From NCBI RefSeq assembly GCF_015097055.1, contig NZ_AP023366.1, forward strand, positions 1,154,501 to 1,218,500: 64,000 nucleotides of DNA, in the 5' to 3' direction. The DNA is from Effusibacillus dendaii (GTDB lineage: Bacteria; Bacillota; Bacilli; Tumebacillales; Effusibacillaceae). How positions within the stretch are numbered: the stretch's first letter is position 1; each line of letters starts with the position of its first letter. Positions 10,178 through 56,119 of the stretch are shown piece after piece. The translations under genes and the position numbers were made by a program. Under the pieces are notes generated by a model. That model was given only the letters and a program-made list of their open reading frames with translations. It was not told the DNA's origin and did no database searches.

Positions 10178-11170
10178 CTACTTTTTCGTTTGTTTATCCG
10201 GGTCATCCCCAAGTTTGGAAATAGCGCCCCGCATATCTGTGTCCGCCATAATATTTTGCATGTTCATATAATCCATGACACCTAATTTCCCTTGTCGCAA
10301 TGCCTCTGCCATCGCTTTTGGCACTTCCGATTCCGCTTCTACCACTTTGGCCCTCATCTCTTCCACATAAGCGCGCATTTCCTGTTCACGCGCTACAGCC
10401 ATAGCGCGCCGTTCTTCTGCTTTTGCCTGGGCAATGCGTTTATCTGCTTCCGCCTGATCGGTCTGCAACTGAGCGCCAATGTTTTTCCCCACATCGACGT
10501 CCGCAATGTCAATCGACAAAATTTCAAAAGCGGTACCCGCATCCAGCCCTTTGGCCAATACCGTCTTTGAAATCGAATCCGGATTTTCCAACACATCCTT
10601 ATGATTGCCGGAAGACCCGATGGTGCTGACTACCCCTTCCCCGACACGAGCCAGGATCGTTTCTTCCCCGGCGCCTCCGACCAGCCGATCAATATTGGCG
10701 CGAACCGTCACTCTTGCCCGCACCCGCACTTCGATACCGTCTTTTGCAACCGCAGAGACAATGGGAGTTTCTATCACTTTCGGATTTACGCTCATTTGCA
10801 CCGCCTGCAGAACGTCGCGGCCCGCCAGATCGATCGCCGCCGCCCGTTCAAAACCAAGCGATATATTGGCCCGTTCTGCTGCAATCAACGCATTAACTAC
10901 ACGATCCACATTGCCGCCCGCCAGATAATGGCTTTCCAACTGGTTTGTCGTAATGTTCAGGCCTGCCTTTGTCGCTTTAATAAGCGGTTCGACAATACGA
11001 GACGGAATGACTCGGCGTAATCGCATCCCCACCAACGTAAAAATGGAAATTCGAACACCGGCCGCCAAGGCGGAAATCCACAACGCAACCGGAATAAACG
11101 TCAACAGAACGGCCAAAACGATCACGGCCAAACCAATAATGACCAACAACCCAATAAACGCCTGATCCAT
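10178..11170 (-). CDS. floA: Flotillin-like protein FloA
   Basis: FloA is a flotillin that scaffolds functional membrane microdomains and influences membrane fluidity. The protein has an N-terminal hydrophobic hairpin (about residues 4-45), an SPFH domain, and an Ala/Glu-rich coiled coil (about 230-300) with repeated EAD/EER patterns for oligomerisation. The ATG at 11170 gives 330 aa, the normal length. The longer frame to 11308 only reads the hairpin repeat array upstream. It follows nfeD, its usual partner. Confidence 0.95.
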
Positions 11171-11190
11171 TTTTCCAAAACTCCTTTCAT

Positions 11191-11293
11191 AGCACGACTT
11201 GGCACCTTTGGTGCCTAAGCGTGACTTGTGCCCTTTGGGTGCATAGCGAGACCTGGCGCCTAGCGCCAAGGCGACTTGCCCCCCTTTGGGGGT
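11191..11293. repeat. Four-unit hairpin array between nfeD and floA
   Basis: Four units with a period of 25-27 bp each consist of a conserved flank (GCACGACTT, GCGTGACTT, GCGAGACCT, GGCGACTT) followed by a small inverted repeat. The hairpins are GGCACC-TTT-GGTGCC (11201-11215), GTGCCC-TTT-GGGTGC (11228-11242, two wobbles), TGGCGC-CTA-GCGCCA (11254-11268) and CCCCC-TTT-GGGGG (11280-11292). The stems differ in sequence but keep pairing, and the 3-nt loop is nearly constant. The array is transcribed as part of the nfeD-floA mRNA on the minus strand. Confidence 0.9.
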
Positions 11294-11304
11294 AGGGTAC
11301 AACG

Positions 11305-11961
11305 TCAAACTGACGGAGCGGCCGCGCCCTCCTGCCTGGAAGCAGGACGAACTACAATTCGCACCCCTTCAACATGGATAACGACAACCGAATCCCCTTT
11401 TTCAACAAAACCGCCTTCCGTTACCACATCAAACCGTTCCCCATCGATAACCACCTTACCGGCAGGGCGCAGGGGTGTAAGCGCCGTTCCTTCCCTATGC
11501 AGCAGAAACTCGTAACTTTTGGTAGGCAAATAGCCTTCTTCCTTCGTCAACTGCTGCTTTAAAATCAACTTATTCCACACCCCCCGGTTCCTGAACCGCT
11601 TAACGGTAATCCAGGTGGCAACGCCAGCCAGTATAAGAGCCAGAAAAAAAGACTGTACTCCGTATTTGGCATCTGCCACAGCGAATGCCACACTGCCTCC
11701 GATTGAGGCGATTCCGGCCACCGACAGGATGCCAAAGGAGGTAACAAAAATTTCAATCACCAATAAGACGATTCCCAATAAAAACAGCAGTATCGGTTCC
11801 CAACCGGAGTAACCCGCAAGGATCTGGCCGATAAAAAACACCGCAAACGATGCAATTCCAATTACACCTGGCAGGATAACCCCCGGGATTAGCACTTCCA
11901 CCACCAGCCCGATAAGGCCAATTGAAAGAAGAATCGGAATGATCACGGGATGGGTGAGCAT
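11305..11961 (-). CDS. NfeD family membrane protein (short form)
   Basis: NfeD proteins are membrane partners of flotillin/SPFH proteins. This 218-residue form has four or five hydrophobic helices (about residues 5-125) and a C-terminal OB-fold domain (about 150-215; [22 protein letters not shown]). It lacks the N-terminal ClpP-like protease domain of long NfeD. The B. subtilis counterpart in this position is YqeZ, which is longer, so this may be a reduced form. The ATG has an AGAAGGAG ribosome site. The gene pairs with floA, separated by the hairpin array. Confidence 0.88.
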
Positions 11962-47458: not shown

Positions 47459-47550
47459 AAAGAAAACTTGGCTTTCGCCAAGCCTTTGGCGCAGGCGGAA
47501 GCCTAGTTACACTTATGTCGATAGGATAAAATTTATAAATTCCTATCGAC
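47459..47550 (+). repeat. Palindromic intergenic repeat, copy A
   Basis: The copy reads AAAGAAAACTTGGC-TTTC-GCCAAGCC, then a GCGCAGGCG stretch, CTAGTTACACTTAT, and a terminal palindrome GTCGATAGGA...TCCTATCGAC with an AT-rich centre. About 90 bp are shared with copy B at 56031-56119. The palindrome end abuts the stop codon of the iron alcohol dehydrogenase gene at 47551. Confidence 0.92.
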
Positions 47551-56030: not shown

Positions 56031-56119
56031 GTCGATAGGATTTATAAATTTTATCCTATCGACATAAGGGCAACTAGGGTTCGCCTGCGCTTAGGCTTGG
56101 CGAAGCCAAGTTTTCTTTA
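56031..56119 (-). repeat. Palindromic intergenic repeat, copy B
   Basis: On the minus strand it reads AAAGAAAACTTGGCTTCGCCAAGCC in two paired halves, then TAAGCGCAGGCG, CTAGTTGCCCTTAT, and the palindrome GTCGATAGGA...TCCTATCGAC. It matches copy A nearly throughout, with small substitutions and indels. Here the AAAGAAAAC end, not the palindrome, lies next to the stop codon of the iron alcohol dehydrogenase at 56121. Confidence 0.92.

Follow-up and report, generated by a model that had tools for sequence, protein, structure and literature searches.

The hairpin array between nfeD and floA, in a window of 64,000 nucleotides that is the whole stretch of DNA analysed here, resembles a mobile repeat with an unusual choice of site more closely than it does a device made for one operon. 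It is probably, though far from certainly, one copy of a dispersed, non-autonomous, REP-like element built of head-to-tail hairpins and mobile as a single strand. Proteobacteria are the hosts in which REP-like elements are best known. In Bacillota, a family of covarying hairpins arranged head to tail at the edges of Shine-Dalgarno (SD) sequences would illustrate how a mobile repeat can front many genes with the same structure, and offers a natural test of targeting versus selection as the source of that placement. It also means that perfectly compensated stems at one locus are no proof of a dedicated RNA device there. We found no prior description of this family in open-access text.

The hairpin array and its units

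Four hairpins stand in tandem on the + strand (11188-11300), with constant flanks and different stems, as the initial annotation had described (Table 1). Both strands of the region fold better than shuffled sequences (z -3.6 to -4.5), and together with the unit-model matches in this genome, about 70 of them, this places the pattern far beyond chance. The inner stems are GGCACC-TTT-GGTGCC in unit 1, TGTGCCC-TTT-GGGTGCA in unit 2, TGGCGC-CTA-GCGCCA in unit 3 and CCCCC(C)TTT-GGGGG in unit 4. All had been called fully compensated, which holds for units 1 and 3; unit 2 contains two adjacent G.T pairs, and unit 4, which lacks the outer flank helix, has one G.T pair. The hairpins are also longer than the 25-27 bp at first assigned to them. 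Read inwards, each unit starts with its outer helix of 4 bp and a bulged A; a short 2-3-bp helix, a bulged base, a variable 6-bp stem and a small loop follow. The 4-nt flanks pair too, and each tetrad is common to two neighbouring hairpins, as in units 1 and 2. For unit 1, RNA and DNA parameters predict the same fold, whichever strand is folded. No Rfam family matched the array at gathering score, the best weak match (13.4 bits) lying far under threshold, and a known RNA family was ruled out on this ground.

Table 1. Features of the nfeD-floA region (window coordinates)
Feature	Position	Strand	Evidence or remark
Whole inserted hairpin array, CATAG tag to GGGTACAA	11188..11302	+	Absent from the nfeD-floA spacer of G001, G002, G003
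TAG tag directly 5' of unit 1	11190..11192	+	Sequence; (A/T)TAG precedes most B units (ATAG 33, TTAG 8)
Unit 1, type B: CACG-A-CTT-GGCACC-TTT-GGTGCC-T-AAG-CGTG	11193..11223	+	R1 match 47 bits, E 2.1e-11
Unit 2, type A: CGTG-A-CTTGTGCCC-TTT-GGGTGCATAG-CGAG	11220..11250	+	R1 match 42.4 bits, genome 1165720-1165750
Unit 3, type B: CGAG-A-CC-TGGCGC-CTA-GCGCCA-AGG-CGAC	11247..11275	+	R1 match 22.2 bits, genome 1165747-1165775
Unit 4, degenerate end unit GACTTGCCCCCCTTTGGGGGTAGGGTACAA	11272..11302	+	Sequence, direct repeat family D1
Shine-Dalgarno of floA abutting the array; AAAGGAGT on mRNA, ACTCCTTT on + strand	11180..11187	-	
floA coding sequence, 330 aa	10181..11170	-	
nfeD coding sequence	11305..11961	-	Stop codon 2 nt past the array

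Both nfeD and floA are transcribed from the - strand. The floA frame is open across the entire array (window 11168-11308), and automatic annotation may place the start inside the repeat; the 376-aa frame that reaches 11308 through the array is not a likely start.

Two unit types of ~27 nt each alternate within the family, B with a variable stem and A nearly constant (GACTTGTGCCCTTTGGGTGCATAGC). The basic unit is a B and then an A hairpin in the same orientation on one strand, ~54 bp in all, following the order (A/T)TAG - B - A and often ending in GGGTAC. A covariance model, R1, was built from 42 distinct units. In the alignment of these units 93.2% of pair cells are paired, compared with 70.6% in shuffles and 18-55% in slid controls, and two-sided changes occur at 11 of the 13 pairs. 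An alignment of 95 matches agrees with this result, having itself been fitted to the structure; both alignments together give 89.9-93.2% paired cells versus 68-71% in shuffles, with two-sided changes at 11-12 of 13 pairs. Covariation was thus found where the initial annotation had named its absence as the mark of a chance cluster. The flank tetrads covary as well: 76 candidate units include CACG/CGTG 20 times, CGTG/CACG 7 times, and CGCG/CGCG and CGAG/CGAG 14 times each, and CACG/CACG never. The CGAG/CGAG flanks possibly form tandem G.A pairs. The two bases next to the flank tetrad change together in the same way (CT/AG, CC/GG, TC/GA).

Structure is therefore kept while sequence changes, and to that extent the earlier claim of selection for structure stands. 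Selection itself is plausible but short of proof, since hairpin stems can also be made and repaired by template switching (PMC8794818). Uncompensated stems also occur (loci L011, L012 and L034). Bulges and non-Watson-Crick pairs persist, which argues against arm copying as the whole explanation. On the + strand the non-Watson-Crick cells comprise 33 G.T and 22 G.A versus 4 A.C, favouring this strand, antisense to floA, as the one that folds; we take this as moderate evidence, and for the array between nfeD and floA we infer the same strand, antisense to both genes. Type A units, which share a common descent, and CGAG flanks account for most of the preference, which gained no support when B units were considered alone.

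Insertions of a dispersed family at Shine-Dalgarno edges

A DNA search with the array returned ~50 dispersed matches in the 3.45-Mb genome. The genome-wide covariance search proposed in the initial annotation did find further units, R1 giving 72 matches at E <= 1 (~70 units, the weakest of which may be chance) in 37 arrays. These arrays are dispersed, multicopy and mostly intergenic. A chance cluster of inverted repeats has no point in its favour that we could find and is refuted by the number of model matches, the strong covariation and the copies in other families; we give it a negligible probability. Nor is an RNA device of the nfeD-floA transcript, as first proposed, supported, given that the array is absent from this spacer in three congeners and that units also turn up in dozens of unrelated loci, within other repeats, as in-frame parts of genes and in rRNA operons. 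The alternative first named, a hairpin-templated repeat mechanism, may apply.

Of the genus, four genomes were examined, and all contain units. Across the class, conservative scoring places them in 17 of 399 genomes, including several genera of family f33 and one genome each from f12, f21 and f26; two of the 17, from f20, carry a different, larger palindrome. Melghirimyces thermohalophilus carries an array. A search of plasmids, phages and viral contigs gave no unit match. In G124 and G283 the unit model matches a different, larger palindrome, and these hits were not counted as members; both genomes hold many copies of a large unrelated palindromic repeat with core GCGACCCTGCAGCTTTGCTGTAG, which matches the model weakly (L133, L134, L149, L151).

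The nfeD-floA spacers of three congeners (G001, G002 and G003), and those of members of another family of the order, are short and without the array, and the array is therefore an insertion. When 12 other sites of the host genome were compared with congeners, 11 had no family-1 array and one, 3105749, was occupied in G002 with fewer units. Tandem 54-bp dimers occur at locus L003. The clearest empty site is 248384, where CTCC is followed by TTATTGATATCC in G002 versus CTCC, then ACAGC...GGGTACA, then TTACTGGTATCC here. This join shows that nothing was duplicated or lost, and the insertion consists of units alone. It is the only empty site clean enough to exclude target duplication, the other pairs being too diverged. 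Neither terminal inverted repeats nor target duplication were found at 248384 or at nfeD-floA; terminal inverted repeats appear only in the shell of the copies in G020.

The insertions share an address. CTCC lies <=12 nt from the array 5' end, in element orientation, in 17 of 27 non-rRNA arrays, with 0.9 expected (P ~4e-19); under a lenient null that allows a 25% chance of the motif in each 12-nt leader slot, the same count still gives P ~3e-5. In 12 arrays exactly one base separates CTCC from (T/C)AG. All CTCC junctions were read by eye. The motif is complementary to the Shine-Dalgarno core of the downstream gene, and array orientation follows that gene. This includes 2870752 and 3318860, where the genes run against the fork direction inferred from rRNA operon orientation, and replication strand was rejected as the cause of orientation because these two arrays follow the gene against the fork. 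The 90-bp family of the same genome served as a control and has the motif or its complement at the left end in 2 of 26 copies. Placement at the SD edge is clear only in the host's genus (G001 has CTCC at 4 of 14 arrays, by hand count) and is rare in other families, where arrays lie mostly inside other repeats.

Fixed orientation, a motif on one strand and no duplication at the clearest site together make these insertions resemble single-strand transposition of the IS200/IS605/REP kind. In the mechanism that we propose, the + strand would fold as single-stranded DNA, and an enzyme would cut it and join it to the 3' side of CTCC, which is complementary to the SD core. Insertions would therefore have an end at a ribosome-binding site; they would all take one orientation and leave the target unduplicated, which is also the pattern of IS200/IS605 and REP. 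Tandem duplication of the B-A dimer would let arrays gain and lose units, and stems would drift with their pairing retained. On the mRNA the hairpins would come immediately before the SD, where they may influence stability or translation as a by-product; an effect of the array on floA expression is possible. Only tentatively do we suggest that the family is a mobile single-stranded DNA hairpin element with the SD complement as its integration motif, one that would supply many unrelated genes with a hairpin leader of the same type.

G001 and G002 have unrelated hairpin repeats at the same SD-edge positions, which could reflect tolerance or selection instead of a target. One account of this kind treats the arrays as neutral repeats without SD targeting. 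They would insert widely, the copies that do least harm, between stop codon or promoter and the SD, would survive, and template switching would compensate the stems. The capacity of template switching to create and repair hairpins (PMC8794818), the uncompensated stems and the different repeat families at the same spots all agree with it. However, it does not sit well with base-level precision, that is, the one-base gap from CTCC to (T/C)AG that 12 arrays show and the low P under the 25% null, nor with the lack of such placement in the 90-bp family, nor with the persistence of covarying flank tetrads, G.T pairs and bulges, all of which would be lost if arms were simply copied. We consider it unlikely. 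A functional account, in which the arrays are mRNA leader elements whose hairpins upstream of the SD tune translation or protect the transcript and are placed and kept by selection, seems to us slightly less likely still. It would fit the 17 of 27 arrays that abut an SD in one orientation, the other hairpin repeats that take the same spots in relatives, the occupation of 3105749 in two species and the strong folding of the mRNA strand. Against this, arrays are absent at nearly all orthologous positions in congeners, the downstream genes have no evident common function, units also lie in rRNA operons, other repeats and coding genes, and the type A unit in mRNA sense has A.C mismatches where the opposite strand has G.T.

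A hairpin repeat, CTATCCCGCGTTG...CTTAGCGGGGTTTCC (L165 in G002, with L032, L039, L040 and L081), lies at an SD edge in G002 where the host genome has a family-1 array. The same repeat also occurs in rRNA/tRNA spacers.

Relation to known mobile hairpins

A mobile REP-like element is the reading that we prefer. No REP transposase was found in the host genome. Its Y1 genes are IS200/IS605 TnpA and remnants (NCBIfam), under the REP transposase cut-off. No units border these genes, one array lying 1.5 kb from a TnpA remnant with an unrelated gene between, and units have no similarity to the ends of the genome's own IS200-type element. We accordingly rejected any connection, within this genome, with a RAYT or with IS200/IS605 ends. 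G266 has a RAYT without adjacent units, and four genomes (G093, G203, G212 and G374) carry arrays and no Y1 gene.

The units share with REP/REPIN/RAYT systems their form as 20-40 bp palindromes dispersed in many copies, a tag (GTAG in REP, (A/T)TAG in the units) immediately 5' of the hairpin, a stem bulge, variable stems and occasional in-frame copies, for example in UvrD-type helicases (PMC3733652, PMC8266576). E. coli REP requires the bulge and the GTAG tag (PMC8266576). The tags before units are ATAG 33, TAAG 10, TTAG 8 and GTAG 1, with only TAG in common with the GTAG of REP. REPs are mainly head-to-head dimers, whereas the units here run head to tail as B-A, with a flank helix common to neighbouring hairpins and no RAYT in the genome. 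The arrays lie at the SD of the downstream gene, unlike REPs, which lie near the 3' end of upstream genes and at varying distance from downstream ones (PMC3733652). The host group also differs, being Bacillota here; the word Firmicutes is absent from that survey (PMC3733652).

IS200/IS605 elements (IS608, ISDra2) and their transposase-less derivatives have two hairpins of the same orientation on one strand, with a bulge, and insert on the 3' side of a short invariant motif, which is retained at the left flank (PMC5934647), the counterpart here being CTCC in 17 of 27 of the host's own arrays. IS608 inserts precisely 3' of TTAC (PMC5934647). Unlike these elements, the units contain no transposase gene, and CTCC is not general in the arrays of other families. 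To our knowledge, a CTCC motif has no report for IS200/IS605 elements. We would say that the element works like REP and IS200/IS605 and stop short of calling it either; the resemblance is one of grammar, and membership fails on the tag, RAYT, Y1 adjacency and the carriers without Y1.

BOX elements of Streptococcus pneumoniae are likewise modular repeats of Bacillota that vary in the number of inner modules, insert into each other and are likely co-transcribed with their neighbours, but they have terminal inverted repeats and target duplications (PMC3049150), neither of which was seen for the units at 248384 and nfeD-floA. In-frame copies in two G001 proteins recall Rickettsia palindromic elements, and CGTC-tagged REPs, too, have no dedicated transposase known (PMC3733652). 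The units differ from both in tag and sequence and form no head-to-head dimers.

Units within rRNA operons, genes and other repeats

Some arrays occupy leaders or spacers of rRNA operons. The rRNA-leader array (L017, L025-L029, L015) has AGTCGTTCTTTG on both sides, resembling the B-unit end (AGTCGTGCTATG), and these borders could be a duplication or a recombination site. Two genes of G001 (L141, L198) contain in-frame copies, both adding the peptide TSRVTAA(E/K)LPDRA, and the two-unit period of 54 nt preserves the reading frame. Judged from a reading of their sequences, these genes appear to encode a helicase like PcrA/UvrD and a protein like those with a LUD domain.

The 90-bp family (TAAAGAAAACTTGGC...CTTATGTCGATAGGA...TCCTATCGAC) is a separate composite repeat without SD placement. 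It has ~45 copies in the genome, with varying internal hairpin modules; copies lie in the window at 47459-47550 and 56031-56118, and the family is represented by loci L042-L071. The initial annotation had suspected kinship with these elements. There is no sign of shared descent, the unit model giving no match in 24 loci of the 90-bp family, and identity was thereby ruled out; the association is one of nesting, with units inside 90-bp-type elements at 2316935 and 2352940 of the host genome and also in G374 and G266. In the distant 2.4-Mb genome G020, a B-A dimer lies inside an element of ~190 bp with terminal inverted repeats GGCTTGTATGTTCTA...TAGAACATACAAGCC (L080, L085, L088, L090, L092, L094, L095, L097 and L099).

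Such nesting raises the possibility that the units are ends or debris of a terminal-inverted-repeat transposon or of the 90-bp family, with no mobility of their own. We regard this as very improbable, for such a shell is missing from most arrays here, the 24 loci of the 90-bp family give no match to the unit model and the insertion at 248384 is made of units alone.

A third hairpin, CCCACCAAAGTG...CACTTTGGTGGG, occurs in 90-bp elements, in B-unit loops and alone at an SD edge in G001 (host loci L052, L053, L056 and L057; G001 loci L089, L096, L205 and L163), so that hairpins are nested in hairpins.
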